A DNA stretch of 64,000 nucleotides, from NCBI RefSeq assembly GCF_007743815.1, contig NZ_CP036265.1, positions 1,266,501 through 1,330,500 of the forward strand, in the 5' to 3' direction. The notes beneath the pieces are model-generated. The model did no database searches, was not told the DNA's origin, and was given only the letters and a program-made list of their open reading frames with translations. Origin of the DNA: Alienimonas californiensis (GTDB lineage Bacteria; Planctomycetota; Planctomycetia; Planctomycetales; Planctomycetaceae). Below are positions 16,290 through 34,970 of this stretch, one piece after another (the stretch's first letter is position 1; the number at the start of each line of letters is the position of its first letter). The translations under genes and the position numbers were made by a program.

Positions 16290-16552
16290 AGCGGCTTTCC
16301 GGCGATCCCCAATCGCCCGTCACGCTACGCCCCCGGCCCGCCCCACGCCACCGGCGGGTCGCTCCCACGCCGGCGGCGGGCCGTTCCCACGCCGGCGGGG
16401 GGTGCATCGGGGGGCACGGCGGCGGAGGCTTCCGGTTGCGGGGATCTGACGCTCGGGGGATCGCCCCCGTGGCGCCAGGCCGGGTCGGCGGGGAGAATGC
16501 CCGGCCCGCGGCGGAGGTCCGCGGCTTCGTCCCCAACACCCCGGAGTCCGCC

Positions 16553-19500
16553 GTGCGGCGTGCCCTGTCCGTCGCCGTATTGCTGACCCTGTTTGCGGCG
16601 CCCGATCCGGCCGCGGGGCAACTGACCGAGCTGTTCGCCCGCGGGGCGGAGGCAGTGCGGCGGCAGGCGAACCGGGCCGGCGACGCCGCCGACGCCGCCA
16701 CCGTCACGCGGACCGTCAACGTGCGGGACGTGGACCTCGCCACCCTCAAGGCCCGGCTGGCACGCTTCGGGGTGAAGGTGCCGATCGAGGCGGAGGGCAA
16801 GGTCAGCGCCACGGTCACCGTGACCGTCCGGCTGACGCAAATCACGCAGTCCGGGGCGATCACCGCTACCGGGCGGATCACCTCCCCCCGGCTGACCCTC
16901 GCCCCCGCCCCGCCCGCCCCCGGCGCGGCTCCGGCCGATCCCGCCCCGGCCCCGGCCGACCCGAACGCGGCCCCGCCGCCGCCGATCGAGCCGATCGTGC
17001 TGACGGATGTGGTCGCGGACCTGTCGCTGGCCCGCGGGGTTCTCGCGCTGGACGACCTCTCCGTGAACCTGCCGGTGGACGGGGCCTTTGTCGGGGGGGC
17101 GGCGATCGGGGGGCCGGTCGGCACGCTGACGGGTTCCGCCTCGCTGCCGTTGGCGGGGGAGGAAACCGAGGCGACCGCGACCCTCACGGCGACGGACGTG
17201 CCGCTCACGGTGTTGTGGGACCGCTTGGGCGCCGGGCTGCCGGTCGCCGGGGGGACGTTTACCGGCACGGTTACCGCCCGCGTGCCTTGGCCGGAGCGGG
17301 GCGACCCGGCGGCCTATGAGGCGACGGCGCAGGTCTCCGCCACCGGCCTGACCGTCGCGGGCCGGGCGGTGGACGACTTGGACGCCGCCCTCGCCCTGAG
17401 CGACGGCACGGCCGAACTGAGCCGGCTGACGACGCTGGTCGCCGGGCAACCGCTGCGGGGGGCGGCGTCGGTGGAGGTGGTCGTCCCCTACGCGTTCGAA
17501 GCGGCGGCGACCAGCGAGCGGTTCGACCTCTCGATCCTCACCGCCCTGTTCCCCGACGGTCCGCCCGCCTGGCTGCCGGCGGACCTCACCGGCACGCTGG
17601 CCCTGAACGTGCAGGGCGACGGCGTGCTGGAGCCCCCGGCCGGCGCCCTCACCGCCACGCTGCGTGGCGGCTCCGCCCTGCAACCGGACGGCGAGAACCC
17701 AGACGGCGAGAACGCGGAGAACCCCGGGGCCGAACCGCTGCGGGTCAACGGGCTGGCGGTGACGGCCCTCAGCGCCGACCTCGTCGCCAACTACTCCCCC
17801 CGCCGCGGCAACGAGGGCGACGCCGACCTTGGCAATGCCAATCCTGAAGGCGACGGCGACGCCGTCGGCGAGGACGGCCCGGACTCGCTCGAACTGACGA
17901 ACGTCGTGCTCCGCACCGAGGCCGGCAGCGTGGTCGGTTCGGCGACCGCGGACCTGACCGGCGCCGGCGCCTGGACCGCGGATCTGACCGGCACGGACCT
18001 CACCCCCCGCCTGCTCGAAGCCCTGCCGGAGCCGATCCGCCCGCCCGCCGGCGCCCTGTCGGGAGACGGTTCGCTGACGCTCCGCGGCACGCTGGTGGGC
18101 ACGCTGGAGCCGGGGGACCTCACCGCGGCGGAGCTGACCCTCAGCGGGGAGAACCTGCAGGTGTACGACGTGCCGGTGCTGGAGCTGGCGGGGAACCTGG
18201 CCGTGGCGAACGGCGAAGCGACGCTGACGGACGTGCGGGCCGTCACCGACCGCGGCGCCTTCACCGGCAGCGCCGCCGTCGGCCCGAACGGCTGGACCGC
18301 CGAGGGCCGGCTGGGCGAGGTGACCGAGGGGATCTTCGACCTGATCCCGGTCTGCGTGCGTCCGCCGGAGTGGCTGATCGCCCGGCAGGGCCGCTTCGCC
18401 GCCGCCGGCCGGGCCCGCGGGCCGGCGAATCCGTGGGGGCTCGAACAGGTGCGGGCGGACGTGCGGGGCACGGGCCTGCGGCTGTTCTCCCTGCCGGTGG
18501 AAACCCTCTCCGCTGACCTCCGCCTCGCCGAAGACCGCCTGACCGCCGCCGACCTGCGGATCGCCTTCGAGGGCGACGGCGACGGCGAGGCCGCGGCCGA
18601 CGAGGCGGAAAGACCGTCCGGCGGGACCCTGACGGGCATCGCCGCGGTGGACTTCGACCGCCCCGACCTGCCGCTGACGGCGAACCTGACCCTCGCGGAC
18701 CTCGACCTCGCCCGCCTGCCGGCGGACCTGCTGCCGCCCGAGTACGGGCTGAACGGCGTCGCCGCGGCGAACGGCCGGATCGACGTGCGGTTCACCCCGC
18801 CCCCGGACCCGGACGCCACCGACCCGAACGACCCCTGCGTGCCCCGCCGGAGCGTGCGGCTGGCGGCGGCGGACGGCTCCGTCACGCTGCGGAACCCCAC
18901 TCTCGCAATGCCCGGCGGCGGGACGATCGCGCTGACGGAAGCCTCCGCGAAGATCGACGTCGCCGACGGCACGCTCCAGTGGCGCGATTTGTTGCTCACC
19001 GCCGCCCCGCCCGCCCGTGCCGGAAACGGCGGCGGCAACGCAGCCCGCGGCCGATTGACGGGCGAGGGCGCCCTCGGGCTGACGGCGCCGCGGCCGTTCC
19101 GGGCGACGCTGCGGTGGGACGAATGGCCGACCGACACGCTGCTCCCCCCCCTGCTGGGCGCCGCCGGCTTCCCCCCGCCCGCCGAGGTGCCCGGCGCCGA
19201 CGGGGCCGCCGCCCGCTCCGGCCGTCGCGGCTCGACGCTGGGGCAGATCGCCGCGACCGGCACGCTGGAACCGTTCAATCTGGAAACCGCCGAGGGCGTG
19301 CTGCGGGCCAGCGACGTCCGGTTGCCGGCGCTGGCGCCGGGGCTGGAACTGCCCTCGCTGGCCGCGGAGGTCGCCCTCACCCCGGAGCGGCTGACGGTGA
19401 GCTCCCTCAGCGCCCGCTTCCTCGCCCCCCCGGACCCCGGGCCGGACGCCGAACCGCGGATCGGCACGCTGTCCGCCTCGGGCTCCCGGTCCCGTCAGGA

Positions 19501-22456
19501 GCCGCACCCGTTTGCGTTCAAGCTGGACGCCGACGGCGTGCCGCTGGCCGTCCTCGCCCCGGCGCTGACCGCCGTCGGGAACGACAGCTCCGGCGCCAGC
19601 GGGGACGGCGGACCGTTGGGCGATCTGGCGACCGGCCCGGGGGCGTTCGCCGGGACCGTCACGCTGAACGCGGACCTGACGGGCTCCGACGACCCCGCCG
19701 ATCTGCGGGGCGACCTGTCGCTGTCCGGCCACGACGTGACGGCGTTCGGCGTGGGCGTCGACCTGCTGACCCTCGCCGCGGAGGCCGACGAGAACGTCGT
19801 CCGGGTGAATCAGCTGGGCGTGGCGTTGGGCGCGGCGGCGGCGTCCGGGCGGGGCGAGCTGCGGACGGACGGCGCCCGCGCCTGGGCCGCCGCCGTGAAC
19901 GTCACCGGCGCCGACCCCCGCGATCTCGCCCGGCGGCTGGCCCCCGTGCTGCCGCTGGCCGTGCGGGAGTTCGGCCCGGACTCCCCCGACAGCCCCGTCG
20001 CCCTGGGCGGCGCGTTGAACTTCAACCTCACCGCGAACGGCAAGCTGGGCGATCCGGCGGCGCCCGCCGACTCCCCCGAGGCCGCCGCCCCCTGGACGGC
20101 GGACCTCAATCTGATCGCCGAGCGTCTGGATCTGGAAGTGCCCCCGGACGCGGACTTCCCCGGTCTCGGCCCGGTCGTGTTGAACGACGTGAAGACGACG
20201 GCGACCCTCGACCACCCCGCCCGCGGCCGCACCCGGCTGACGGTCGAACGGCTGGCGGCGAGGCTGGCCGACGGCGACCTGCGGGTGACGGCCTCCGTCC
20301 CCCTGCCCCGCGAGGAACCCGCCGGGCCTCCCTTGAACAGTGAGCCCTCGGTTCGGGAGCCCTCGGTTCGGGAGCCCTCGGTTCGGGAGCCCTCGGTCGG
20401 GGGGCCGGCGGCGGCGCCGGTCGAGACGGAGGAGAACGGGTCCGCGACGCTGGCCTGGGTCGGCGGGGACGTGGGCGCCCTGCTGACGGCGGCCTCCCCG
20501 CGGCGGTTCGATCCGGCGGCCGGCGGAACCGAGCCCCCGCTGACCGGCGCCGCCACCGTGCGGGCCGCCGCCGCCTGGCCGGCCGGGCGGCTGTCGCTGA
20601 AGTCCGTGGCCCTGAACGGCCGGGTGACCAGCGACCTGCTGACAGTCGTGCGACGCAGCGGCGCCGGGCGGCCGGTGCGGCTGCGGGACGCGATCCTCAC
20701 CGCGGAACTGGCTGGGGGCGTGGGCAAGGGAGCGGTGGAGGCCCGCGGGTTCGGCGGCGACTTCGGCGCCGCCGCCGCGTTCCGCCCGCTACCCGTTGCC
20801 GCGGCGCCCTCCCCCGCGGCCCTCGCCTTCGCTGAGCCCGGCCCCGTCACGCCAATGGCCGCCACCAACCCGGCCGCCGTGCCCACGGTCGCGACGCCCA
20901 CAGCCGCCGCGAGCGCGGCCGCCGCCGACGCGATCGCCCTGTTTTCAGGCGCCGCGGAGACCGGCGGGGGGGAAACCGGCGACGACGGATTCGGGGCGTG
21001 GCCGTTGCGGGTGGTCGCGTCGGCGGGGGTGCAGAACGCGGACCTGCTGGAGCTGGAATCGGTCCTCCGCGGCCGCAGCGGGGCGGCGCCGTCGGTCCGC
21101 GGACAGGCCAACCTCTGCCTGCGGTTCGATTCCCACCCCGAAGGCCCGCCGGTGGATCTGGCGGCGCTGCTGCCCGGCGTCGCCCCCCCGCCCGGCTGCG
21201 CCGCCCTGCCCACGCGGGCGCCCGCGGAGATCGATTCCCTCCGCCCCGGCCGCCCGGCGCCCCGGCTGACCGGCACGGTGCGGCTGCGGTCGGTCACCTG
21301 GGGCGGCGAGCAACTGGTCAACGACGCCATTCTGGCCCTCGACGCCCGCGATCCGACCGACTGGACCGGCGAGCTGCGCAACGGCCGCTACGCCGGCGGA
21401 ACCTTCCAACTGACCGTCGGCCCCCCGCCCGGCGGCGATTCCACAAACGGCGCGCTGCAGATCGAACTGCTGCTCCGCGACGCCGACGCCGACCGCGCCT
21501 TCGCCCCGGTCCCCTGGCTGGGGGAAAACGTGACCGGCCGGCTGGGCATACGGCTGAACGGCCTGCTCGGCGTGAACGCCGTGATGCTGCGGGGGCAGAT
21601 CGAACTGGACCGCGGGCAGTTCCTCGCCGCGAACGCCCCCGGGCGGCCGGGCAACGACTACCTGTTCGACATCTCCCGTTGGCGCCTGCCCACCGAACTG
21701 GTTTACACGCCCGCCGCCGGCTCCGGCCGGGTGCGCATCGGCGGCGCCAGCGCCTCGGTGGGCGGCGGCACGGTGGAGGGCGGCGTGGACGTGCAGTTCG
21801 GCCGCAGCCCCGGCGTGGGGCTGGACGTCGATTTGAACCTGCGGGGCGTGGACTCCACGGTCCTCACCCAGGGCGCCGGCGGGAACCTGACCGGCGGCCG
21901 CGTCGCCGGCACCGTCACACTGGCCGGCCGGGCCGTGGACGGACTGGAAGACCTGGAGGGCGAGGCCCGGCTGATCCTGGTGAGCCCCTCCCCGCAGGGC
22001 TTGCCGGTGCTCAGCGCGCTCCAGCCCTTCCTGAAGTTCCGCGGCCCCGCCACCGCCCGCACCGGGGAGTTGGCCGTGCGGCTGCGGAACTCCGTCGCCC
22101 GGATCGAGCGGCTGACGCTCTCCGGCCCCGGCATTCGCCTATACGCCACCGGGACCGCCGCCCTGCCCGCCGGCCGGCTGGACCTGGAAGTCGTCGCCGA
22201 CACCGGCCCCCGCGACGTGACCGGCGACGTGCTGCTCCGATTGGTGGAGGAAGCCGCCGGCCCCACGCCCGTCGGCTTCGCCCTGCGGGCCAGCCGGATC
22301 CTGCGGGACCGCGTGGTGTACCTGCACGTCGGCGGCACGGTCCGCAACCCGCGGGTCCAGGTGCAGACGGGCCGTCAGCTTCAGGACGAGGCGCTCCGCT
22401 TCCTGCTGGGCGAACTGTTCATTCCCGGCGGCGGCGCCGGCGCCGCCGGGCCTTGA
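16553..22456 (+). CDS. Giant AsmA/TamB-like envelope protein
   Basis: About 1967 residues from a GTG at 16553, chosen because a signal peptide begins there (RRALSVAVLLTLFAAPDPAAG). The body is a long series of beta-rich repeats with recurring motifs such as LTGTVTLxG, GxLxLxG and LxVxxLxARLxDG. The C-terminus (from ~1790: GGRVAGTVTLAGRAVDGLED, FALRASRILRDRVVYLHVGG, VQVQTGRQLQDEALRFLLG) resembles the end of AsmA/DUF3971/TamB-type proteins, which form periplasm-spanning lipid-transport bridges. Low-complexity Pro/Ala linkers and a 15-bp tandem repeat interrupt it. It stands alone, divergent from the sigma factor. The fold assignment is by pattern and the function is inferred. Confidence 0.65.
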   Translation: MRRALSVAVLLTLFAAPDPAAGQLTELFARGAEAVRRQANRAGDAADAATVTRTVNVRDVDLATLKARLARFGVKVPIEAEGKVSATVTVTVRLTQITQSGAITATGRITSPRLTLAPAPPAPGAAPADPAPAPADPNAAPPPPIEPIVLTDVVADLSLARGVLALDDLSVNLPVDGAFVGGAAIGGPVGTLTGSASLPLAGEETEATATLTATDVPLTVLWDRLGAGLPVAGGTFTGTVTARVPWPERGDPAAYEATAQVSATGLTVAGRAVDDLDAALALSDGTAELSRLTTLVAGQPLRGAASVEVVVPYAFEAAATSERFDLSILTALFPDGPPAWLPADLTGTLALNVQGDGVLEPPAGALTATLRGGSALQPDGENPDGENAENPGAEPLRVNGLAVTALSADLVANYSPRRGNEGDADLGNANPEGDGDAVGEDGPDSLELTNVVLRTEAGSVVGSATADLTGAGAWTADLTGTDLTPRLLEALPEPIRPPAGALSGDGSLTLRGTLVGTLEPGDLTAAELTLSGENLQVYDVPVLELAGNLAVANGEATLTDVRAVTDRGAFTGSAAVGPNGWTAEGRLGEVTEGIFDLIPVCVRPPEWLIARQGRFAAAGRARGPANPWGLEQVRADVRGTGLRLFSLPVETLSADLRLAEDRLTAADLRIAFEGDGDGEAAADEAERPSGGTLTGIAAVDFDRPDLPLTANLTLADLDLARLPADLLPPEYGLNGVAAANGRIDVRFTPPPDPDATDPNDPCVPRRSVRLAAADGSVTLRNPTLAMPGGGTIALTEASAKIDVADGTLQWRDLLLTAAPPARAGNGGGNAARGRLTGEGALGLTAPRPFRATLRWDEWPTDTLLPPLLGAAGFPPPAEVPGADGAAARSGRRGSTLGQIAATGTLEPFNLETAEGVLRASDVRLPALAPGLELPSLAAEVALTPERLTVSSLSARFLAPPDPGPDAEPRIGTLSASGSRSRQEPHPFAFKLDADGVPLAVLAPALTAVGNDSSGASGDGGPLGDLATGPGAFAGTVTLNADLTGSDDPADLRGDLSLSGHDVTAFGVGVDLLTLAAEADENVVRVNQLGVALGAAAASGRGELRTDGARAWAAAVNVTGADPRDLARRLAPVLPLAVREFGPDSPDSPVALGGALNFNLTANGKLGDPAAPADSPEAAAPWTADLNLIAERLDLEVPPDADFPGLGPVVLNDVKTTATLDHPARGRTRLTVERLAARLADGDLRVTASVPLPREEPAGPPLNSEPSVREPSVREPSVREPSVGGPAAAPVETEENGSATLAWVGGDVGALLTAASPRRFDPAAGGTEPPLTGAATVRAAAAWPAGRLSLKSVALNGRVTSDLLTVVRRSGAGRPVRLRDAILTAELAGGVGKGAVEARGFGGDFGAAAAFRPLPVAAAPSPAALAFAEPGPVTPMAATNPAAVPTVATPTAAASAAAADAIALFSGAAETGGGETGDDGFGAWPLRVVASAGVQNADLLELESVLRGRSGAAPSVRGQANLCLRFDSHPEGPPVDLAALLPGVAPPPGCAALPTRAPAEIDSLRPGRPAPRLTGTVRLRSVTWGGEQLVNDAILALDARDPTDWTGELRNGRYAGGTFQLTVGPPPGGDSTNGALQIELLLRDADADRAFAPVPWLGENVTGRLGIRLNGLLGVNAVMLRGQIELDRGQFLAANAPGRPGNDYLFDISRWRLPTELVYTPAAGSGRVRIGGASASVGGGTVEGGVDVQFGRSPGVGLDVDLNLRGVDSTVLTQGAGGNLTGGRVAGTVTLAGRAVDGLEDLEGEARLILVSPSPQGLPVLSALQPFLKFRGPATARTGELAVRLRNSVARIERLTLSGPGIRLYATGTAALPAGRLDLEVVADTGPRDVTGDVLLRLVEEAAGPTPVGFALRASRILRDRVVYLHVGGTVRNPRVQVQTGRQLQDEALRFLLGELFIPGGGAGAAGP
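20342..20400 (+). repeat. 15-bp in-frame tandem repeat in the AsmA-like gene
   Basis: GAGCCCTCGGTTCGG is repeated three times exactly and a fourth time with one base missing. It encodes EPSVR repeats near residue 1264, in a linker between beta-rich segments. The unit length is a multiple of three, so copy-number change would keep the frame. Confidence 0.9.
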
Positions 22457-24569: not shown

Positions 24570-25901
24570 GTGAGCGTACCCAGCGACAACCGGCCCCCCA
24601 CCAACCGCCTCGGCTTTCCGGGCGGCGACGGACGATCCGGCGATGAACCCGGCGGCGACGGGCTCCCTCCGCTGGCCGCGGCGGCCCGTAAGCCCGTGCG
24701 CCTCGGCCCGTTGGTCGTCAGCGGGGAGATCGACAACACCCGCCCCTACGCCGTCTGCGGCTGGCTCAAGCTGCGGGGTCAGGAACACCCCATCACGCTG
24801 AACCTCACCGGCGACGCCGGCGAGGGCCTCCGCGGCAAACGAGTGCGCTTCGAATCCGCCCCCGGCGGCGTGCAGATCTTCACCCCGCCGGACCTTTCCG
24901 AAGCCCTTGCCTGGCAGCAGGTCGGCCCGACCGGCCCGATGACCCTCGACCGCCCCGGCCCCCACAACCCCGGCGGGTCCCTGCGGAGCGGCGACCACGG
25001 CCCCGCCGCCGGCCTCACCCCGCCGGCCTCCGGCCCCACGCCCTCCCGCCCGGCCTCCGACCCCGCCCGCCCCGGCCGCGACGTGCTGCGGCTGGAATGG
25101 GACAGCCAGAACGGCCGCGTTCGCCTGCACCTCGCCGGCGCCGTGATTACCGAACTGCCCTCCCACGACGAGGAAGACGAACTCGACGACCCGGACATCG
25201 TCGCCGGCTCCGCCCCCGACGATCACCTCACGGATCTGTCCGACGAAGACACGCAGTTCGGAGAGGAAGAGGACGACGACGACCGCTTCGCCGACGGCGA
25301 CCGACTGTTCGACGACGAGGACGACGACCCGTTCGGCCTGTTCGACCCGGACCTGCAGGACTCACTCGACGACGACGCCGACGCCCTCGACCGCGACGCC
25401 ATGCCCGACCTGTTCGGCAGCGGCTTCGCCGGCTTCGGCGAGGACGGGTACAGCGACGGCAGTTACGGCGACGGCAGTTTCGGCGACGGCGACGGCCCCG
25501 GCGGGCAGTTCGGCGAGGACCTGCGGCGGCTCGAAGCCCTGATCGAGGGCGGCGCCGGCGTGCCGATCGGCCAGGTGTTCGATCCCCCCCTGCGGCTCCG
25601 CCGCCCGGAGCAACTGGACGACGCCAAGGTCGAGGCCGCCCTCAAACTGCTCCTCTCACGCCTCGCCGAGCACGGCATCGCGTTGGACGTCTGCGAGCAC
25701 TTCACCCCGCGGGAAAGCTACGCCTACCTGCTGGAGGAGATCTGCCCCACGGAACTCACGCACCCGGAGCTCGATCCGGTGCGGTGGGTCCAGCACTTCA
25801 GCACCTCCGACGCCTGCCCGGCCTGCGAAGCGGAGTTCGAGCGCGAGTTCGAAGAATACGAACGCGACCGCCGCCGCCGCGGAGACGACGACGAGGAATA
25901 G
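24570..25901 (+). CDS. Acidic protein of unknown function
   Basis: 443 residues, GTG start with a GGGAG upstream. I do not recognise the family. An N-terminal folded part (40-115: VRLGPLVVSGEIDNTRPYAVCGWLKLRG) is followed by a Pro/Gly linker and a strongly Asp/Glu-rich stretch (about 200-290). A Gly/Ser/Asp stretch with the repeat SYGDGSFGDG comes next. The C-terminal ~130 residues look folded (DDAKVEAALKLLLSRLAEHGIALDVCEHFTPRESYAYLL) and contain CPACEAEF, a single CxxC. It is probably cytosolic. The acidic region could mimic nucleic acid or bind basic protein or metal; this is conjecture. Confidence 0.7.
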   Translation: MSVPSDNRPPTNRLGFPGGDGRSGDEPGGDGLPPLAAAARKPVRLGPLVVSGEIDNTRPYAVCGWLKLRGQEHPITLNLTGDAGEGLRGKRVRFESAPGGVQIFTPPDLSEALAWQQVGPTGPMTLDRPGPHNPGGSLRSGDHGPAAGLTPPASGPTPSRPASDPARPGRDVLRLEWDSQNGRVRLHLAGAVITELPSHDEEDELDDPDIVAGSAPDDHLTDLSDEDTQFGEEEDDDDRFADGDRLFDDEDDDPFGLFDPDLQDSLDDDADALDRDAMPDLFGSGFAGFGEDGYSDGSYGDGSFGDGDGPGGQFGEDLRRLEALIEGGAGVPIGQVFDPPLRLRRPEQLDDAKVEAALKLLLSRLAEHGIALDVCEHFTPRESYAYLLEEICPTELTHPELDPVRWVQHFSTSDACPACEAEFEREFEEYERDRRRRGDDDEE

Positions 25902-26169: not shown

Positions 26170-26661
26170 TCACCGCGGGTCGCGGGCTTGGGCGAACTTG
26201 ATGTTGCCGACCAGCGGCACCGTCGTGCCGTCCGGCAGTTTGTCGCCGCTGACGGAGCCCACCGTCTTAATGAACCAGCGATAGTTCAGATCGTAGTCCG
26301 GGTCGATCGTGACGGACAGATCCTCGTTGGGCGTCGCGTCGCTGGGGTCGCCGGCGATCGCGCGGATCTTGCTCGTCAATTCGGCGAACGCCGCGTCGTC
26401 GTTGCCGAGGTTGACCCCGTTGAGCTGCAACGAGCCCAGTTCCCCGGCCGGCGTGGCCAGCACGCGGACGTTGATCTCCGGAAGCAGCGAATCCGTGGGG
26501 TTCCCCCCGGCGCCCAGCGGCATGTTAATGCCGAACTCGCCCTCCGGGGCGACGATCTTCAATGTCAGCATAAAGAAGATCAGGAGCTGGAACACGACGT
26601 CGATCATCGGCGCCATCTGCGGCGCGATCTTTTCGACTTTGGAGCCGCCGCGGAACTTCAT
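26170..26661 (-). CDS. ExbD/TolR-family proton-channel subunit (distal)
   Basis: 163 residues. A short N-terminal tail is followed by one membrane helix carrying the conserved Asp (APMIDVVFQLLIFFMLTL) and a periplasmic domain (KIVAPEGEFGINMPLGA...). The family pairs with ExbB/TolQ to turn proton-motive force into mechanical work across the envelope. It is the last gene of the minus-strand cluster, 49 bp after the other exbD. The C-terminal part has an unusual insert (SVTIDPDYDLNYRWFIKTVG). Confidence 0.88.
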   Translation of the reverse strand: MKFRGGSKVEKIAPQMAPMIDVVFQLLIFFMLTLKIVAPEGEFGINMPLGAGGNPTDSLLPEINVRVLATPAGELGSLQLNGVNLGNDDAAFAELTSKIRAIAGDPSDATPNEDLSVTIDPDYDLNYRWFIKTVGSVSGDKLPDGTTVPLVGNIKFAQARDPR

Positions 26662-26710
26662 GGGTGGGCTTTCATATTCGCTGATCGGAGGAGGGACGCC
26701 GCGGCGTCCG

Positions 26711-27196
26711 TCACTGTTCTTCCTGCTGGGCCTTGACCGCGAACATCGTGAATTGCTGGCCCTGCGCCTTGGTGATCAGGTTCTGGATCTGCCCGCTGGG
26801 CACCTCCGCGTCGGCCCGGATGACCACGGTCACGTCCTCCAGCTTCGTGCCCTCGTCCGTGAAACCGCGGGCCTCCCGGGCGAGGATCGTATCGGACTGC
26901 GGGATCGGCACGCCCGCCCCGCCCTCGGCGGTGTCGAACAGCAGGGCGTCGGGCGAGGCCGGGTCGATCGTCCCGTCGGCGAGGCGGTTAAAGCCGACGT
27001 TCAGCACGATGTCCTTCTCCCGCGGGGCCTCCGTGGGCCGGGCGATGGCGTCGATCGGCAGCTTGACACGCTCGTCGGCGCGGGTGTTTTCGAAGTTCGT
27101 AATCACCATAAAGAAGGCAATTAACTGGAACACGATGTCGATCATCGGGGTCATATCGACCTCCGCGACGTTCGGTTCCCGCTCTTTGACGCGCAT
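26711..27196 (-). CDS. ExbD/TolR-family proton-channel subunit (proximal)
   Basis: 161 residues with the same architecture as its neighbour: DMTPMIDIVFQLIAFFMVIT (membrane helix with the proton-carrying Asp) and then a periplasmic domain with VKLPIDAIARP, KDIVLNVGFN and VTVVIRADAEVPSGQIQNLI. It lies 47 bp downstream of exbB. The two ExbD paralogues differ enough to suggest a hetero-oligomer or two output partners. Confidence 0.9.
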   Translation of the reverse strand: MRVKEREPNVAEVDMTPMIDIVFQLIAFFMVITNFENTRADERVKLPIDAIARPTEAPREKDIVLNVGFNRLADGTIDPASPDALLFDTAEGGAGVPIPQSDTILAREARGFTDEGTKLEDVTVVIRADAEVPSGQIQNLITKAQGQQFTMFAVKAQQEEQ

Positions 27197-27243
27197 CGTC
27201 CGCTCCGGCGGCAGGGATTATAAAAGGGACCGGGGAACCGGGA

Positions 27244-28017
27244 TCAGGCGTCCTTCTTGGCTTTGCCCAGGGCGCTGAACCGCTGCATCAGGCCCTCGCT
27301 GACGATGCCGACTTCCAGAATATACCGGGCCACGCGGTTCCGCAGCAGGCTGTAGGCGACCATCGCGGGGATGGCGATCGCCAGCCCTTCCAGCGTGGTG
27401 AAGAGCGCCTGCGAAATACCCTGGGCCAGCTCGGCGGGCTTGGGGGCGGTGGTGCTCTGGGCGATGGTCTGGAAGGAGGAAATCATCCCGGTGACCGTGC
27501 CCAGCAGGCCGAGCATCGGGGCGATGGCGCCGACCAGCGCCAAGTAGCTCAGGCCGTGCTCGTAGGTCATGTTCTCGTCCTCGCCGACCTCCTGCATCGC
27601 CTCGACGGCCTCCGGGTAGCCGCGGTTCAGACGGCCCAGCCCGGCGGCGAGCACGCGGGCGACGACGGATTCGTCCTCACGGGCCAGTTCGTAGGCGCCC
27701 TGATAGTTCTTCGCGGCCAGTTCGGCCTCGAAGTCCTCGACGAAACCGTCCGGCAGGAAGTTCTGCCGCCGCACCTTGAGGACGTTCAGCGTGATCAACG
27801 CCACCGTCACGAAGGAGAGGGCCAGGAAGATGAGGCCGAACAGCCAGCCGTTCGCCTCCAGCATCCAGACCAGAAAGTTCTGGCTCTCCGGCGCCGCGGC
27901 GGTGGCGCCGGCGGCGGGGGCGTCCGCGGCGGGGGCGGCGTCGTCCTGGGCGAAGCTCGCCGCGGGGGTCAGCAGGAACAGGCCCAACAACAGGGCGGAC
28001 GCGAAGCGGCGGGACAT
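27244..28017 (-). CDS. MotA/TolQ/ExbB-family proton-channel protein
   Basis: 257 residues from the ATG at 28017, where a signal peptide begins (LLLGLFLLTPAASFAQ). After an Ala/Pro/Asp-rich periplasmic stretch comes the first helix (GWLFGLIFLALSFVTVALITL), a cytoplasmic loop, and the two helices of the TolQ/ExbB channel (SYLALVGAIAPMLGLLGTVTGM and TLEGLAIAIPAMVAYSLL). A cleaved signal plus three helices is the common planctomycete form. It sits between TPR genes and two ExbD genes on one strand with short gaps, so the products probably form one complex. Confidence 0.92.
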   Translation of the reverse strand: MSRRFASALLLGLFLLTPAASFAQDDAAPAADAPAAGATAAAPESQNFLVWMLEANGWLFGLIFLALSFVTVALITLNVLKVRRQNFLPDGFVEDFEAELAAKNYQGAYELAREDESVVARVLAAGLGRLNRGYPEAVEAMQEVGEDENMTYEHGLSYLALVGAIAPMLGLLGTVTGMISSFQTIAQSTTAPKPAELAQGISQALFTTLEGLAIAIPAMVAYSLLRNRVARYILEVGIVSEGLMQRFSALGKAKKDA

Positions 28018-28097
28018 GGCGGGACGGCGGGAACCGGTCGGGAGGTGAGCGAAAACGGGAACGGGCGGGACGTGGGAGGCGTCGGCCGGAGGGTCAA

Positions 28098-29171
28098 TCA
28101 GCCGGCGGACAGCTTCGCCGCCCAATCACTGTTCGGGTAGTTGGCGTTCAACTTGGTGGCGGCTTCGCCGGCACGCTCCGGGAAGCCGACGGTCGGCCAC
28201 AGCCGGGACAAATGGTACAGGCTCTCCGCATGGGCGGCGCTGGCCCCCGGGTAGAGCACGTCCACTTTGAGGTATTCGAGGATCGCGGGTTTCGTTTGTC
28301 CGGTCGCCTGCAGGCTTTCGCCGCGGCCGACGTGGGCGGCGGCCCGCAGTTCGGCGTCGCCGGCGGCGGATTCGTCCAGCACGCCGTCCAACACCGTCAG
28401 TGCCTCGTCGTGCCGGTTCAGCCGCGTCAGCGCCGCGGCCCGGCCGATCTTCGCCTCCGCCGCGGCCCGGCCCTCGGCGCTCTGCAGCACGGAGTCGAAC
28501 GCGCTCAGGGCGGCGTCCGCCTCGTTCCGCTTCAGTGCCAACTGCCCTTCGGCGACTGACGCGGCCGTTTTGAACTCCTGCGAGGGGCTCTGTTTGAGCT
28601 GTTCCAGCGTGGCGGCGGCGGCCTCCAGGTCGTTGGCGGCGGTCTGCACCTCGACCAGCATCCGCAGGGCCGCGTCGGTGCGGAAGTGGTCCGGGTTGTC
28701 CTTGACGAACTGTTGCAGCGCCGCGACGGCCTCCGCCCGGCGGGCGGGGTCGTTCAAGGCCAGCTTGCCCAGCGCCCGGGCCACGAGGAACTGCCCGTCG
28801 GCCCGGGCCAGGGGGCCGATCTTGGACATCTCCGGGGCCGCCTCGCGGTAGACGGTCAGCGCCCCCACCAGGTCGCCGCGCCCTTCGCGGCCGCGGGCGG
28901 CGCCCATCGTCGCCGGTTCGCCGTCCCAACTGACCTCCGTGATCTCCGCCGCCGGCACCGTCTCCGCCGGGTCGGTGGCGGGCTTGATCGTCAGCCCGGC
29001 CCGGTCGCCGGCGGTGATCGTTCCGGGGATCGTCGGCTTGCCGCGGGGGGTCACGGAGTCCGCCGACGCCGGCGCGACGACGAGGGCGAACGCGGCCGCG
29101 CCCCAAAACGCGGCGAACCGGGGCGCGGCGAGCCGGGAACGGCGGGCGGCGGGATGCGGGAGAGCGATCAT
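28098..29171 (-). CDS. Exported TPR-repeat protein
   Basis: 357 residues from the ATG at 29171, chosen because a signal peptide starts there (AFWGAAAFALVVAPASADS). The mature protein begins with a small strand-rich region (TPRGKPTIPGTITAGDRAGL...AEITEVSWDG). Helix pairs of TPR type follow (GDLVGALTVYREAAPEM, AEAVAALQQFVKDNPDHFRTD, NEADAALSAFDSVLQSAEG, PAILEYLKVDVLYPG). It probably acts in the periplasm as a scaffold, like YbgF/CpoB in Tol systems. It lies between the giant TPR gene and exbB, with 80-90 bp gaps. Confidence 0.85.
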   Translation of the reverse strand: MIALPHPAARRSRLAAPRFAAFWGAAAFALVVAPASADSVTPRGKPTIPGTITAGDRAGLTIKPATDPAETVPAAEITEVSWDGEPATMGAARGREGRGDLVGALTVYREAAPEMSKIGPLARADGQFLVARALGKLALNDPARRAEAVAALQQFVKDNPDHFRTDAALRMLVEVQTAANDLEAAAATLEQLKQSPSQEFKTAASVAEGQLALKRNEADAALSAFDSVLQSAEGRAAAEAKIGRAAALTRLNRHDEALTVLDGVLDESAAGDAELRAAAHVGRGESLQATGQTKPAILEYLKVDVLYPGASAAHAESLYHLSRLWPTVGFPERAGEAATKLNANYPNSDWAAKLSAG

Positions 29172-29262
29172 CGGGCGAACGGGAGACGGAGCGAACGGGG
29201 CGACGGCCGGGACGCGACGGGGCGCCGCGGGCCGACCGCGACGGGGCGGGCGGCCGCGGGGG

Positions 29263-32200
29263 CTATTCCGAGGGCGGCTTCGGCCGCCGCTTGCGGGGCG
29301 CGCCGGACGAATCGGAGGACGAGGAGCCTGACGAACTGGAACCGGAGGAGCCGGACGAGGTCGAACCGGACGACGACGAGCGGCGCCGCACCGTCTTGCC
29401 GTCCGGCGCCGCGGCGCCGGGGCTGGCCGGCCGCCGCGTCTTCCCACTGGACGACGTGCCGCTGGAGGAACTGGACGAGGAGCGCCGTCGCTTGACGGCT
29501 TCCGGGCCACTCGTGCCGGAGCTGGCGCTGGGAACCCCGGAGCGGGTCCGCGGGGCGGTTCCGGCGGCAGGCTTGGAGGCCTTCTTCTGCGACAGGGCGG
29601 AGAAGTCCGGGAAGTCGGTGCCGACCGGCCCTTCGTCGACGGCCGCTGCCGGGACGGCGGCGGGGATCGGGGCGACGTCCGGCAGCGAGCTGCGGACCAC
29701 CCCGTGCCCCTTCATCTTGGCGTGGGTGGCGCCCTCGTCCCCGGCCTTGCCGGTCGAGCGGCGGGCGGCCCGTTTCCGAGGCTTCGGCTTGAAGGCGATG
29801 ATGCCGCCGATCGTGATCAGCGTCAGCACGACCAGCCCGACGACCAGCAACACCACGTTCGGCCCCTCGTCCTCCTCCGCGGTGTCGGTCGCCGCGGGGC
29901 TGTTGGCGTTTTGCGTGCCGGCGCCGGCGTCGGCCACGCGGGGCTCTTCCCCGTCGGCGGAGGGCGTCGCGGCGGGGGCGCCGCCGGTCGGCAGCGGGGC
30001 CGGGTCGGCCACGCCCCGGCTCTCCTGCAGGCTGCGGTACAGCTCCTCGGCCTGCTTGCGGGTCTCCGGGGCGATCTTGTCCGGGGGCGTCAGCGTGATC
30101 CAGGAGAGCAGTTCCTTCTCCGCCGCCTGATATTCAGAAGTCTGCTCGTCGCCGGACTTCGTCGCCGCCAACGCGGCCCGCACCGTGGGGATCTGCAAGC
30201 GGGCGTTGTTGAAGTCCGCCTGGAAGCGCTCGCCCTCCGGCGTCCGCAACTGCTTGGCCAGCATCAGGGAGATTTTGCCCCAGCCCCAGACCTTCGCCGT
30301 CTCGTCGCCGGCGAGAGCCTTCACCAGGGTGGCGGCGTCGCCCTCGGCGGCGCCCCAGTCGCCCAGCAGGTTGGCGGCGACGGTCTGCGCGTTCAGAGCG
30401 TTCTCGCTGGCGGACAGAACCTGCAGGACCTGATCGTAGCCCTCCTGGAACTTGCCGGCGCCGGCGAGCACCTCGGCCAGCCGCAGCCGCACGGCGTTCG
30501 CCGCGGCCTGTTTGTTCTCCTCGGGCAGATGGTTCTGCACCACGGACCGCAGGGCCTTCGCGGCGGCGTCGTAGTATTGCCGCCCCTGGGCGGCGCCCTC
30601 CGGCAGGGTCTCGGCGAGGCCGGCGTAGGTCTCCGCGACCCACATCAGCGAGCCGAAGGTTTGATCGTCCGAGGCGGCGATCTCCTCCAGGAAGCTGACG
30701 AGGTTCGCCCGGGCCTCGTCCCGGGCCGGGCCGGGCGGGATCTCCTCGAGTTCTTCCTGAATCTGCCGACCCAGTGAGACGAACACCCCCACGTCCCCGC
30801 CGGTGCTGACGGACTGGATATCCTTGATCGTCTGCCGGGCGGCGTCGATGTTCTTCAGGCCGATCTGGGCCCGCAGCAATTGTTGATAGACGATCTTGGC
30901 GAACCCGGCGCTTTTAATCCCCTTATCCGGCCGCTCGGCGCCCTCCGCGACGGCGACGGCGTTCTGCACCTTCGCCTTGCCGCCGGTCAGCTCGTCGACG
31001 GCCTTCTGGAACTCGCCCTCGCCGTTATAAATCTGGGCGAGGGTCGTTTTGCCGATCACCAGCGTGGGCGAGAGCTCCGCGTCGCCGCTCAGCGACGCCT
31101 CGGCCTTGGCGACGCCGCGTTGCAGGTACTGTTGGGCCTCCTGCCGCAGGGTCTCGGCGTTCGGGGCGTCCTCGCCGCCGGGGGGCGGGGTCGCGGGGCC
31201 GTCGGCGGCTTCGGCCCGGGCCAGTTCCAGGCTGCGGCGCCACAGGGCGTCGCCGGCCCGCAACTGGGCGTCGGCGTAGCCGGCGTCGGACTCGGGGATC
31301 GCGGCGAAAGCGTCGGCGGCGCGGGCCAGTTCGCCCTCGTTCAGCAGCACGCGGCCGAGCGTCACGCGGGCGTTGGTGGCGGCGTCGCTGTCGGGGTATT
31401 TCTCCGCGATCCAGCCCGCCAGCCGCTCCAACTGGGACAGTTCGAAGGAGCCGTCGAAGCCCTCCGGCCGGGTCTGGTAGGCCTGCGTCCAGGCCAGCGC
31501 CGCGGTCGTGGCGGCCTGCAGCGGGATGCCGGACTGGTCCGGGGCGTCCGGCTTCTCCGGGTCCGGCGGCGGGGGATTGAAGTTCTGGGCGACGTACTCC
31601 GCCAGCACGGCGGCCTCGTAGTAGCGACCGGCCAGCGTGTTGACGTACGCCAGCAGATAGCGGGCCCGGCTGAGTTCGCCGATGTCCGTGTTCGAGTCCG
31701 CCAATTCGTTGGCGGCGTTCAGCAGCCGGGCGATCTCCGAGAGCAGGGAGTCCAGATCGCCCTGGGCGGCGGCTTTGTCCTCCGGGGTCATGGCGGCGGC
31801 GACGGCGTCCTGCTTCTCCTTGAGCTGGCGGAGCAGCGCCTGGGCGGCGTCGAAGGCGTCGACGAACTTGGTGGGCGTCGCGCGGTCCAGGCCGAGCTTC
31901 TCTCGCACGCGGTCGGCGGCGAGGGTCGCCGGGCCGCGGACCGCCTCGCTGCGGCGGGCGGCGGTCTGGAAGTCGGCCAGGGCGGCCCGCAGGTCGCGGG
32001 TGCGGTCGCGGCCGTCCTCCGCCGGGGCGCCGCGCTCCTGGGCGATGCCGCGCTCGAAGATCACCCCGGCGCCGGTGTCCGAGCCGCCGCGGGCGCGATC
32101 GGCGTCCAGCCAGGCCGTCGCCTGGGTGACGACGGTTTGATGATCGGCCTTGAGCGGGTTGTTCAGCACCGACAACCGCAGCCGCTGGGCCGTGCCGCGA

Positions 32201-33198
32201 AGCCGCTCGACCGCCGCCCGCACCGCGATGCCGGCGCCGGCGGGCGGTTCCTGATTGACCACCTCCTCCAGAATCGCCGCCGCGGTGGTGAGCTGTTTGA
32301 CCGCCTCGGTCCGTGCGTCGCCGGAGAGCTTCGCGACCGCGGCGGGGTCCTCCGGCACGCGGGCCATGCGGATCTGGCCCTGAATGATGCGGCCGGGCAG
32401 CGCCCCGATTTTGCGGCGGAAGTCGTTGCGCAGCTCCTCCAGCGGGGCGTCCGCCTCGTCCAGCAGACGGCTGCGGTCCGGGCTGCCGATCGGGTAGGTC
32501 TGGGCGCGGCGGAACACCACGCGGGCGGCCTCCACCCGGGCGCGGATCAGCCGGCCCTCGGCGGCGGTGCGGCGGGCGACGGCGGCGTCGTCCCGCTGTT
32601 CCAGGCCGATCTCCTGGATGGTCCGCTCCAACCCGCGGCGGGCGTCGCCGTAGACCCGTCCGGCGTCCTCCAGCAGGCGGCGGGCCTGCGTTTTGGTCTC
32701 CTCCGGCAGGGCGACCGGGTCCTCCACGTCCAACAAATCGGCGGCGGCCTGTTGCAGGATCTCCGCCCGCAGGAACTGGGCGTCCCCGGCGAGGGGGTTG
32801 TTCGGGTTTTTGAGGGCGAAGTCCTCCAGCAACGCCGAGGCCTCGTCCAGCCGGGTGCGGGCGTCCGTCCCCGGGCCGGCGCTGCGGGCGAGGGCCAGCA
32901 GGGTGAGGGCCCGCTCGTAGGGCAATGCCGCTTTGAGTTCCGCCGGCGTGTCCTCGTCCGCGGCGAGGCGGTCGATCTCCAACATGGCGTAGTCCGCCAG
33001 CCGCCGTTCCCGCAGCCCTTCCAGGAAGGCCCGCTCCGGCCCGTCCAGGGCGGAGGGCTCCCCGCCGTCCTCCTGGGCGAAGGCGGCGTTGGCGCCGCTC
33101 AGCAGGGCGGCGGCGCACAGGATCGCCCGCAGCGTGCGGCGCGCCCGCCAAACCGTCGCCCACGGCCGGACCGTCCGCGGGGTGGGGGCGTGCGACAT
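29263..33198 (-). CDS. Giant TPR membrane protein with Ser-rich basic tail
   Basis: 1311 residues. A signal peptide (AILCAAALLSGANAAFAQ) is followed by ~1000 residues of helical TPR-like repeats, then one membrane helix (VVLLVVGLVVLTLITIGGIIAF, ~1125) with a Lys/Arg-rich stop-transfer sequence. The cytoplasmic tail has several Ser-only runs separated by basic residues (for example RRRSSSSGSTSSGSSG). It is the first gene of the cluster with a second TPR protein, ExbB and two ExbDs. It therefore probably forms the large periplasmic part of a proton-driven envelope machine. The tail could be phosphorylated by the many kinases or bind nucleic acid; both are conjecture. Confidence 0.85.
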   Translation of the reverse strand: MSHAPTPRTVRPWATVWRARRTLRAILCAAALLSGANAAFAQEDGGEPSALDGPERAFLEGLRERRLADYAMLEIDRLAADEDTPAELKAALPYERALTLLALARSAGPGTDARTRLDEASALLEDFALKNPNNPLAGDAQFLRAEILQQAAADLLDVEDPVALPEETKTQARRLLEDAGRVYGDARRGLERTIQEIGLEQRDDAAVARRTAAEGRLIRARVEAARVVFRRAQTYPIGSPDRSRLLDEADAPLEELRNDFRRKIGALPGRIIQGQIRMARVPEDPAAVAKLSGDARTEAVKQLTTAAAILEEVVNQEPPAGAGIAVRAAVERLRGTAQRLRLSVLNNPLKADHQTVVTQATAWLDADRARGGSDTGAGVIFERGIAQERGAPAEDGRDRTRDLRAALADFQTAARRSEAVRGPATLAADRVREKLGLDRATPTKFVDAFDAAQALLRQLKEKQDAVAAAMTPEDKAAAQGDLDSLLSEIARLLNAANELADSNTDIGELSRARYLLAYVNTLAGRYYEAAVLAEYVAQNFNPPPPDPEKPDAPDQSGIPLQAATTAALAWTQAYQTRPEGFDGSFELSQLERLAGWIAEKYPDSDAATNARVTLGRVLLNEGELARAADAFAAIPESDAGYADAQLRAGDALWRRSLELARAEAADGPATPPPGGEDAPNAETLRQEAQQYLQRGVAKAEASLSGDAELSPTLVIGKTTLAQIYNGEGEFQKAVDELTGGKAKVQNAVAVAEGAERPDKGIKSAGFAKIVYQQLLRAQIGLKNIDAARQTIKDIQSVSTGGDVGVFVSLGRQIQEELEEIPPGPARDEARANLVSFLEEIAASDDQTFGSLMWVAETYAGLAETLPEGAAQGRQYYDAAAKALRSVVQNHLPEENKQAAANAVRLRLAEVLAGAGKFQEGYDQVLQVLSASENALNAQTVAANLLGDWGAAEGDAATLVKALAGDETAKVWGWGKISLMLAKQLRTPEGERFQADFNNARLQIPTVRAALAATKSGDEQTSEYQAAEKELLSWITLTPPDKIAPETRKQAEELYRSLQESRGVADPAPLPTGGAPAATPSADGEEPRVADAGAGTQNANSPAATDTAEEDEGPNVVLLVVGLVVLTLITIGGIIAFKPKPRKRAARRSTGKAGDEGATHAKMKGHGVVRSSLPDVAPIPAAVPAAAVDEGPVGTDFPDFSALSQKKASKPAAGTAPRTRSGVPSASSGTSGPEAVKRRRSSSSSSSGTSSSGKTRRPASPGAAAPDGKTVRRRSSSSGSTSSGSSGSSSSGSSSSDSSGAPRKRRPKPPSE

Positions 33199-33443: not shown

Positions 33444-34970
33444 ATGCGGGTCCGGTTCGCATCGATCCCATCCAGTCTCGATGATGCGGCGACCGCGGCC
33501 GCCCGCGTTCCCGGCCCCGTCACCCCGGTCCCGTCTCCTCCGTCTGCTGTGCCCGACCCCTCCCGCCCCGCGGTTCCCCCCGCCGGAACTGGCCCGGCCC
33601 CCGCGGCGGGGTCGTCGGTCGGGGCGGGCGATCGCACGGGCGATCGGTTCGACGTCCCCTTTACGGTCCCGCTGACCCACCGCCTGCGGTTCACCCGGGA
33701 CGCCCTCGGCGCCGACGCGAACGTGCTGGCCGCGTTGTTAGAGAGCGGCGAGGGCGAGGACCGCGTCACGCCGAAGGTGCAGGTCTGGGCGGACGGCGCC
33801 CTGGCGAACGGGGTGCCGGGGCTGACGGGGCGCCTGAACGAACTGCTGGCCGACTGGGCCGCCGCGGGGCTCGCGGAGCCGGCGGGGACCTTTCGCATCG
33901 TCGGCGGGGAGGCGTGCAAGAACGACCCGCGGCACGTCGAGCGGGTGCTGACGGCGATCAACGACGCCGACTTGGACCGCCGCAGCTACGTGCTGGTGTT
34001 GGGCGGCGGCGCCGTGCTGGACGCGGTCGGCTACGCCGCGGCGATCGCCCACCGCGGCGTCCGGCTGATCCGTCTGCCCACCACCACGCTGGCGCAGGGC
34101 GACAGCGGCGTGGGGGTCAAGAACGCCGTCAACCTCTTTCAAAAGAAGAACTGGCAGGGCACCTTCGCCGCCCCCTGGGCCGTGGTGAACGACGCCCGCC
34201 TGCTGGAAACCCTGCCGGACCGCGACTTCCGCGGCGGCTTCAGCGAGTGCGTGAAGGTTTCCCTGCTGAAAAGCGCCGAGGACTTCGCCGACCTCTGCGA
34301 ACGGGCCGAGGCGATTAAAAACCGCGAGTTCGACGCCTACTGGCCGGCCCTCAAGACGAGTTGCCTGTGGCACCTCAACCACATCACCGCCGGCGGGGAC
34401 CCGTTCGAGGCCCGCGAGGCCCGGCCGCTGGACTTCGGCCACTGGAGCGCCCACCGGCTGGAACCGCTCAGCGGGTACGCCGTCCGCCACGGGGAGGCGG
34501 TCGGCCTGGGGGTGGCCCTGGACGTGCTCTATTCCGCCGCCGTCCACGGCCTGCCCGCCGCCGACGCCGACCGCGTGCTGGACTGCCTCGCCGCCCTCGG
34601 ATTGCCCCTCTGGCACCCGCTGCTGGGCGAGCCCGACCGACTGATGCGGGGGTTGGAGGAGTTCCGGCAGCACCTCGGCGGCCGGTTGACGATCACGCTG
34701 CTGGGCGGCGTCGGCGCCCCGGTGAACGTCCACGCGATCGACGACGCGGCCATGCGGCAGGCGTTGCGCTCCCTCTCCCGGGCCGCCAGCAAGCGGGGAG
34801 CGACTTGGGAAGAGTTTTTCAGAGATCTGGCCCTGAGGGTCCCCCACCCTTCTCACGCCGAGGCCCCGCGGGGCCTCGGCGTGACGGATGTGGCGGACGA
34901 GAAGCGTCCCGTCCGTTCGCTCCCCACGAACCCCAAGCGGCCCGTGACGCCGGTGAAGGTGAAGTCTTGA
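33444..34970 (+). CDS. Sugar-phosphate cyclase (3-dehydroquinate synthase family, EboD-like)
   Basis: 508 residues from ATG. After ~65 Pro/Ala-rich residues comes the domain: FTVPLTHRLRFTRDAL, VLGGGAVLDAVGYAAA, RLPTTTLAQGDSGVGVKNAVN, GGFSECVKVSLLK, DFGHWSAHRLE and RHGEAVGLG. The metal ligands expected for this NAD- and metal-dependent family (Glu in SEC; His in HWSAH and RHGEA) are present. SECVKVS and FGHWSAH differ from typical AroB and look like the EboD branch, linked to the ebo cluster of cyanobacteria and others. The domain ends near 455, and a tail of ~50 residues contains a perfect 32-bp palindrome. It is coupled to the next gene by a 4-nt overlap. Confidence 0.85.
   Translation: MRVRFASIPSSLDDAATAAARVPGPVTPVPSPPSAVPDPSRPAVPPAGTGPAPAAGSSVGAGDRTGDRFDVPFTVPLTHRLRFTRDALGADANVLAALLESGEGEDRVTPKVQVWADGALANGVPGLTGRLNELLADWAAAGLAEPAGTFRIVGGEACKNDPRHVERVLTAINDADLDRRSYVLVLGGGAVLDAVGYAAAIAHRGVRLIRLPTTTLAQGDSGVGVKNAVNLFQKKNWQGTFAAPWAVVNDARLLETLPDRDFRGGFSECVKVSLLKSAEDFADLCERAEAIKNREFDAYWPALKTSCLWHLNHITAGGDPFEAREARPLDFGHWSAHRLEPLSGYAVRHGEAVGLGVALDVLYSAAVHGLPAADADRVLDCLAALGLPLWHPLLGEPDRLMRGLEEFRQHLGGRLTITLLGGVGAPVNVHAIDDAAMRQALRSLSRAASKRGATWEEFFRDLALRVPHPSHAEAPRGLGVTDVADEKRPVRSLPTNPKRPVTPVKVKS
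34853..34884. repeat. Perfect 32-bp palindrome inside the cyclase gene
   Basis: TCACGCCGAGGCCCCG followed at once by its exact reverse complement. It is read in frame as SHAEAPRGLGVT in the C-terminal tail of the cyclase. It has no spacer, so it would form a cruciform or a very stable mRNA hairpin just before the coupled HD gene. Confidence 0.9.

Follow-up and report, generated by a model that had tools for sequence, protein, structure and literature searches.

Gene neighborhoods of the order TPR-tolQ-tolR-tolR-vWA, where TPR stands for tetratricopeptide repeat, have been described in bacteria of the Planctomycetes-Verrucomicrobia-Chlamydiae (PVC) group, and a proton-gradient drive has been proposed for them (PMC12204202). 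In Fibrobacter succinogenes, the nearly consecutive genes FSU_2396-2403 include an OmpA gene, two genes for exported TPR proteins, an ExbB gene and two ExbD genes (PMC6851124), and this run is upregulated on cellulose (PMC6851124). Given these two cases, the layout of the cluster we analyze here is not without precedent. It is a run of five genes in the planctomycete Alienimonas californiensis, encoding a giant TPR-type protein (A), a small periplasmic TPR protein (B), an ExbB-like channel subunit (C) and two ExbD-like subunits (D and E). The run lies in a stretch of 64,000 nucleotides, hereafter the window, which covers positions 1266501-1330500 of a single contig of 5,475,215 bases. We find that the five genes form a real, old and conserved unit and a variant of the ion-driven motor family, and that in deep planctomycete lineages this unit is often accompanied by secretin genes.

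A reading of the window from its sequence alone (the sequence-only reading) had proposed a five-gene, one-strand TPR-TPR-ExbB-ExbD-ExbD cluster. Open reading frame (ORF) calls and Pfam matches for B to E confirm this order on the minus strand (Table 1), with gaps of 91 bp (A/B), 77 bp (B/C), 47 bp (C/D) and 49 bp (D/E), that is, 47-91 bp overall. The starts of B and C were set by eye at methionines preceding signal-like segments, the longest ORFs being longer. GC at the third codon position is 0.83-0.93 for the five genes, with B and C measured on the longer ORFs.

The conservation of this gene order was checked in 195 Planctomycetota genomes, using as query only the N-terminal part of A (~350 residues). 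Matches were found at 56 places in 49 of the genomes, and the DNA was read around all of them (52 plus the window, L046, L052 and L057). ExbB and ExbD genes follow A in order at 46 of the 56 places: 19/21 main copies in the window's family, 6/6 in other families of its class and 21/23 in deeper lineages (21/22 testable). The neighborhood is thus kept, and its recurrence across the phylum goes beyond chance. Among the 46, A lies directly before ExbB with no B in L153, and L179 has one ExbD before the contig ends; the ten other places are A-B only (L187, L189), nothing (L169), a cluster cut by the contig (L176) and six lone second copies. Around the first 18 relatives' loci, A to E were the only genes common to at least 11 loci, barring reverse-strand and frame shadows, and other flanking groups reached four loci at most.

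Named loci found with A number 26. The complete A-B-C-D-E row is seen in 14, although the contig truncates A in L080, L083 and L088, and E in L067. Of the rest, four show A-B only, L082 shows A-B-C, and contig ends truncate the other seven; some of the 26 belong to genomes that also appear among the other relatives. The named relatives of A are planctomycetes, including Gimesia (which has the cluster in L065 and L080), Schlesneria and Planctomicrobium. Two other records bear just the title 'bacterium', and another, under the name Flavobacterium (L088), is probably misbinned. No relatives of A were found in viral contigs. A third or fourth ExbD follows E in L070, L075, L083, L170 and L193.

The motor subunits are readily assigned. 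C lies above the cut-off of 22.9 bits for MotA_ExbB (PF01618) and has a profile match to ExbB/TolQ proteins in the PDB, while D and E both exceed the ExbD cut-off of 25.4 bits (PF02472; scores in Table 1). C also carries an N-terminal signal-like segment, seen by eye, in agreement with the earlier description of an ExbB with a signal. That D and E are distinct paralogues, as had also been claimed, is borne out by 11/11 aligned loci in which D-type and E-type sequences are kept apart. The cluster therefore holds one ExbB gene and two ExbD genes, a trio we refer to as Q-R-R. The channel threonines equivalent to T148 and T181 of E. coli ExbB are present in 86/86 ExbB rows, paralogues included. 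The membrane aspartate of ExbD is found in 178/183 rows (173 distinct), 171 by pattern and 7 by eye, and both D and E of the window carry it; the 12 rows outside the pattern are seven with a variant motif that retains the aspartate, four without it (L124, L125) and one fragment. In a tree of ExbB sequences, 21 deep rows fall on one side of a branch (SH-aLRT 86), and the rows of the window's class group with the split and second-type Q-R-R sets described below (support 98). This tree was made by a quick method, gave long-branch warnings and included no Myxococcus sequences; its shape appears to be in line with vertical descent.

Secretins are the flanking family with the widest distribution among the deep lineages, found at 15 loci by linkage and 14 by profile. 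A secretin gene lies directly upstream of A (gap at most ~0.6 kb) in 14/21 deep clusters belonging to 12 family codes, or in 14/19 of those with more than 0.6 kb of upstream sequence; two further clusters without a secretin have less than 0.6 kb upstream in view. A second secretin gene follows E in 10 deep clusters, at a distance of 2.0-2.4 kb in three of them. Five of these secretins (L154, L157, L162) were confirmed by Pfam and the others were recognized by a profile grown from those five. The tested secretins match the Amuc_1098, MshL, PilQ and GspD models, all below cut-offs, and some have an N-terminal TPR region.

Other flanking genes of the deep clusters are PilM-like (7 clusters), PilO-like bitopic (6) and fibronectin-type bitopic (4). 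The fullest order is PilM-like, PilO-like, fibronectin-type bitopic, TPR-secretin, A, B, ExbB, ExbD, ExbD, second secretin. PilM was confirmed by Pfam in L154, L156, L157 and L163, the protein of L154 exceeding the PilM cut-off and matching Amuc_1101 below cut-off. The name 'PilO-like' comes from layout, and the members in L154, L157, L159 and L162 have no Pfam family above cut-off; a Pfam fibronectin domain was found in L162 and in neither L154 nor L163. The counts of these three families include the profile seeds themselves, namely 6/7 PilM-like, 3/6 PilO-like and all four fibronectin-type rows. The flanking stretches reached up to 19.5 kb and some of their ORFs were run through Pfam; no assembly ATPase, platform protein or pilin was among the ten flanking ORFs run. 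Four deep clusters without a secretin (L161, L164, L166, L175) have a recurrent gene directly upstream of A, in the secretin's place; in L161 it encodes 629 aa with weak TED/squalene-cyclase-like matches.

Because the five genes are kept together across the phylum, often beside genes for outer-membrane channels, they probably encode one envelope machine. The planctomycete-type proton-driven envelope machine envisaged in the sequence-only reading gains support from the conserved neighborhood, the channel threonines and the ExbD aspartate. The explanation toward which we lean, with slightly more confidence than doubt, is a proton-driven 5:2 motor that acts on, or is held by, a periplasmic TPR solenoid and that, in the deep lineages, is linked to a secretin machine. 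The whole would be a trans-envelope machine moving material or force through the envelope. C would form the ExbB-type channel, with D and E as an unequal ExbD pair in its pore. Judging from the family and its conserved residues, proton flow would turn or rock the D/E pair, and the periplasmic domains of D and E may act on, or be positioned by, the A-B pair, which would reach toward the outer membrane. In the deep lineages the module may be part of a secretin machine, the secretin-bearing order possibly being the older state, and the motor could gate or energize passage through the secretin pore or pull on material bound there. In the window's family the secretin is not adjacent, and A has a predicted C-terminal membrane tether.

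We put forward a more specific version of this machine tentatively and regard it as doubtful. It would be an ancient planctomycete proton-driven secretin machine, in which ExbB and the unequal ExbDs, by way of the giant TPR solenoid, open or drive a PilQ-like pore in the outer membrane, with a PilM-type platform at the inner membrane and a TonB-like role for large molecules, and which has been re-tethered to the inner membrane by the new helix of A in the window's family. According to a comparative study of polysaccharide use in planctomycetes, some of them are believed to take up marine polysaccharides in a way that is not known (PMC11131199).

Several observations weigh against a single proton-driven machine linked to secretins. 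A match to A above cut-off is lacking in 146/195 genomes of the phylum. The glutamate E176 of E. coli ExbB is a glutamine in the window and is kept in 14/86 rows. Five deep clusters with at least 3.7 kb of upstream sequence show no secretin, and neither the window nor any class-level locus examined showed one, the window's own genome not having been searched; PilM-, PilO- and fibronectin-type genes were likewise not seen in the window or those loci. The six lone second A-like copies belong to the window's family (L158, L160, L168, L171, L173, L186). A-B has no motor next to it in L071, L076, L077 and L078, where at least 3 kb beyond is in view, nor in L049, L053, L056, L058, L059, L060, L187 and L189. 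Finally, in a search of 18 genomes for orthologues of E, no match above 53 bits was found in G003, G008, G013, G015, G018 and G023, all of which carry another Q-R-R set. In other genomes of the class where A-B stands alone, this search located the motor elsewhere: G021, G022 and G026 have an E orthologue on another contig (203-221 bits), and G017, G020, G024 and G025 have a diverged one (94-131 bits).

These separations could be taken to mean that A-B and C-D-E have separate functions and share an operon by history, as A-B stands without adjacent C-D-E and sometimes no close E orthologue was found in the genome. However, the linkage at 46/56 places holds over a phylum in which the sequence identity of A drops to ~20 percent already within the class, and in L126, L128 and L153 A accompanies the motor although B is missing. 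We therefore consider separate functions very unlikely; the link of A-B to the motor is loose but real. In G020 and G017 (loci L126 and L128), a giant TPR protein recognized by the A profile (283 and 275 bits) lies directly before Q-R-R, with no B. The separated motors of G024 and G025 each have two ExbDs that both lack the membrane aspartate (L124:7430-9740, L125:5872-8152), as if the motor had decayed once separated from A-B; as these two genomes are close kin in the tree, the loss of the aspartate may be one event.

Other sets in the class resemble parts of the unit. A second type of ExbB-ExbD-ExbD set was observed in L129-L136, followed in L130, L131, L132 and L134 by a protein of 316-382 aa without a Pfam family. 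The second set of G016 consists of a B-like protein, Q-R-R and then a long exported protein whose likeness to A is weak at best. In L137, the long protein that follows B-Q-R-R was rejected as a relative of A, its best stretch scoring just 14.7 bits by the A profile.

The sequence-only reading had noted that TonB, TolA, TolB and Pal do not adjoin the cluster, which is correct for the neighbors tested by Pfam. Genome-wide profile searches at E 0.01, for which each control search was positive in E. coli, returned 0 matches to TonB_C (PF03544), to the TonB-dependent receptor Plug (PF07715) and to TolB_N (PF04052), TolA not being searched by itself. The absence of TonB, TolB and the TonB receptor therefore extends genome-wide by the profiles used. 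Three places in the genome have an OmpA domain; none is by the cluster and one is beside an ExbB-family gene at 4694655.

Given the lack of a TolB_N match, it is conceivable that the unit is a planctomycete stand-in for Tol-Pal, maintaining the outer membrane and serving division, B standing in for CpoB/YbgF, and the two OmpA-domain places away from the ExbB-family gene could be Pal-like. Both A and B do match the YbgF model, but weakly (30 and 44 bits against a cut-off of 90), and B was rejected as CpoB/YbgF on this ground (TIGR02795, 44.1 bits, cut-off 90.1). Moreover, neither Pal nor TolB is among the recurrent flanking families of the deep lineages that were run through Pfam, which are secretins, PilM, sulfatase and HAD. 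A Tol-Pal stand-in thus seems unlikely to us.

Two further ExbB-ExbD-ExbD sets lie near 2847 kb and near 3886 kb of the genome and could take on part of the same work as that of the window. In the set near 3886 kb (L036:4960-14339), one ExbD has an N-terminal zinc-ribbon-like segment (by eye), and after the set come an FHA/PQQ-propeller protein and another protein, which has a solute-binding domain; the protein upstream of its ExbB was considered as a TonB-like candidate and rejected, having no Pfam family. The set near 2847 kb (L037:8892-13818) is beside a gene for a NADH dehydrogenase subunit, together with a protein that looks LolA-like by eye and has no Pfam family. A second giant TPR protein of 1145 aa is encoded at 479-483.5 kb (L039:3110-7529), directly before an ExbB-like gene with a signal-like segment; a thiazole-synthase-looking gene (by eye) comes next, and no ExbD place is listed nearby.

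The sequence-only reading had described A as a TPR membrane protein. After a signal peptide at ~1-41 (by eye), the predicted model of residues 42-1200 shows a helical solenoid at ~50-1060 (mean predicted local distance difference test score, pLDDT, 84.3; predicted TM-score, pTM, 0.55), followed by a disordered linker, a single helix at ~1115-1135 (1074-1094 of the model) and a disordered, basic, Ser-rich tail. This single helix is presumably a membrane anchor, with the tail in the cytosol. Foldseek gives A significant matches, with E values as low as 3e-9 but query-normalized TM-scores (TMq) below 0.2, and TPR-containing proteins lead. The solenoid and the C-terminal helix thus uphold the description, while A matches no Pfam family and its TPR label is a prediction, given because of the solenoid model and the Foldseek matches.

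We then followed the C-terminal helix through the relatives of A, defining it as a hydrophobic segment of mean hydropathy at least 1.8 within the last 400 residues. Of 51 rows (47 distinct tails) from the window's family and its close named kin, 50 have it; the remaining one, L204, reaches 1.52 and has a similar glycine-rich segment 152 residues before the end. Only 1/12 rows from other families of the class has it, and this row (L126) is borderline at exactly 1.8, with the segment lying within the solenoid, 261 residues before the end. The helix is found in 0/21 deep-lineage rows and 0/6 second A-like copies. By these predictions, the membrane helix of A characterizes a single branch, and the operon elsewhere does without it.

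This restriction to one branch argues against a TonB-like docking of A on ExbB through its helix. The sequence-only reading had suggested that A could replace the usual force transducer, and a direct transducer in the place of TonB/TolA, docked on ExbB by the helix, would fit A being the usual motor partner, the lack of TonB_C in the genome and the membrane helix in the window's family. However, the helix is C-terminal, the opposite of the TonB layout, and sits on a disordered tether; it is absent in 11/12 class-level and 21/21 deep rows, mostly with the same operon; and no SHLS motif occurs in A to E. We now think a direct transducer docked in this way quite unlikely. In the stretches scanned for an SHLS-bearing neighbor, the motif turned up only in four short ORFs (65-132 aa), and none of these is convincing. 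A could still receive force in the periplasm, or serve as a static scaffold.

The scaffold alternative is best considered together with B, which matches TPR families above Pfam cut-offs and has a signal peptide seen by eye. Its model (mean pLDDT 93.1) has a small beta domain at 38-81 and then a TPR solenoid at 87-356, and its structural matches are TPR proteins. In the Campylobacter flagellar motor, two periplasmic TPR proteins also occur with a 5:2-type motor, and PflA has a beta-sandwich before its TPR region (PMC12222027), much as the beta domain of B precedes its own. The C. jejuni scaffold chain 9hmf_K ranks third in Foldseek for B (TMq 0.55) and 24th for A (TMq 0.14). It is therefore possible that A-B is a static scaffold that places or anchors motor units in a PflA/PflB-like manner, with force leaving via D/E to an unlinked protein. 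This similarity is, however, one of TPR in general: designed CTPR proteins outrank 9hmf_K, and a second structural search is led by NprR, TTC7B, LGN and Rap proteins, with 9hmf_K missing from the best 50. A structural case for homology to PflA/PflB is thus not separable from general TPR similarity, and the matches of both models, to TPR and similar superhelices of many functions, appear uninformative on a specific role. A-B is also found apart from the motor. We regard the static scaffold as possible, though on the doubtful side. It overlaps with the proton-driven motor that we prefer, which leaves open whether A-B receives force or holds the motor, and the probabilities of the readings do not sum to one.

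The five-gene unit is isolated, with a divergent gene upstream and a convergent gene downstream (Table 1). Elsewhere in the window, an ORF of 2006 aa on the plus strand (16436-22456) has coding-like GC and no Pfam match at 1e-4. Its sequence is suggestive of AsmA/TamB-type bridge proteins.

Table 1. The five-gene unit and its two neighbors (positions in the window; aa, amino acids)
Feature	Position	Strand	Basis
A, giant TPR-type periplasmic solenoid protein, 1311 aa	29263..33198	-	ORF and predicted model
B, small periplasmic TPR protein, 357 aa	28098..29171	-	Pfam TPR and predicted model
C, ExbB/TolQ-like channel subunit, 258 aa	27244..28020	-	PF01618, 103.8 bits
D, ExbD/TolR-like subunit, first paralogue, 161 aa	26711..27196	-	PF02472, 49.1 bits
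E, ExbD/TolR-like subunit, second paralogue, 163 aa	26170..26661	-	PF02472, 50.6 bits
3-dehydroquinate synthase-like, upstream, divergent, outside the unit	33444..34970	+	NF004852, 450 bits; not recurrent around relatives
Downstream convergent gene, outside the unit	24570..25901	+	no Pfam/NCBIfam family

A probable proton motor with its own TPR proteins, spread over the phylum, flanked by secretins in many deep lineages and encoded in a genome without a detected TonB or TonB receptor, yields five to ten candidate genes, and its neighborhoods suggest that ion-driven motors may serve secretins. In the open-licence literature, we found no case of an ion-driven motor coupled to secretins among the matches listed; nor did we find the A-B pair, its secretin link or a TPR-TPR-ExbB-ExbD-ExbD block with secretins among the titles and abstracts of the matches listed.

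Of the described systems, those of PMC12204202, from planctomycetes and related bacteria, share with the window a TPR gene, one tolQ-like gene and two tolR-like genes that differ from each other. However, they have a downstream vWA transducer whose membrane helix bears SHLS, whereas A to E lack SHLS, and no vWA match was found among the neighbors in the window and the relatives' flanking proteins run through Pfam, the genome not having been searched. In the accessible text of PMC12204202, the word 'secretin' does not occur and a second TPR gene is not mentioned. The Fibrobacter run differs in ending with a TonB-family gene, FSU_2403, and only 2400-2403 are termed an operon in the portion seen of PMC6851124. 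Myxococcus AglRQS likewise combines one TolQ-like and two TolR-like proteins with several exported TPR proteins (PMC3169522), but the TPR genes of this gliding motor (Glt proteins) are in other clusters, unlike those of the window (PMC3169522). In C. jejuni, PflA and PflB are two periplasmic TPR-type proteins organizing 5:2-type motors (PMC12222027), yet these are flagellar and no sequence relation was seen. The Vibrio TonB2 system needs a TPR protein, TtpD2, for its ExbB/ExbD-powered function (PMC6957404), but it has TonB (PMC6957404), whereas the genome of the window shows no TonB_C and no Plug.

On the secretin side, Amuc_1098 is an outer-membrane secretin of Akkermansia with an N-terminal TPR region (PMC4960237), and the secretins of the PilM-secretin pilus clusters of PVC bacteria (PMC4960237, PMC10688800) resemble those beside the deep A-B-Q-R-R clusters, with scores below cut-offs. 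However, no motor genes are mentioned for Amuc_1098-1102 in the accessible parts of these reports (PMC4960237, PMC10688800), and such secretins were not seen next to the cluster of the window. What is new here, compared with these systems, is the A-B pair over much of the phylum, the branch-specific membrane helix of A and the secretin neighbors.

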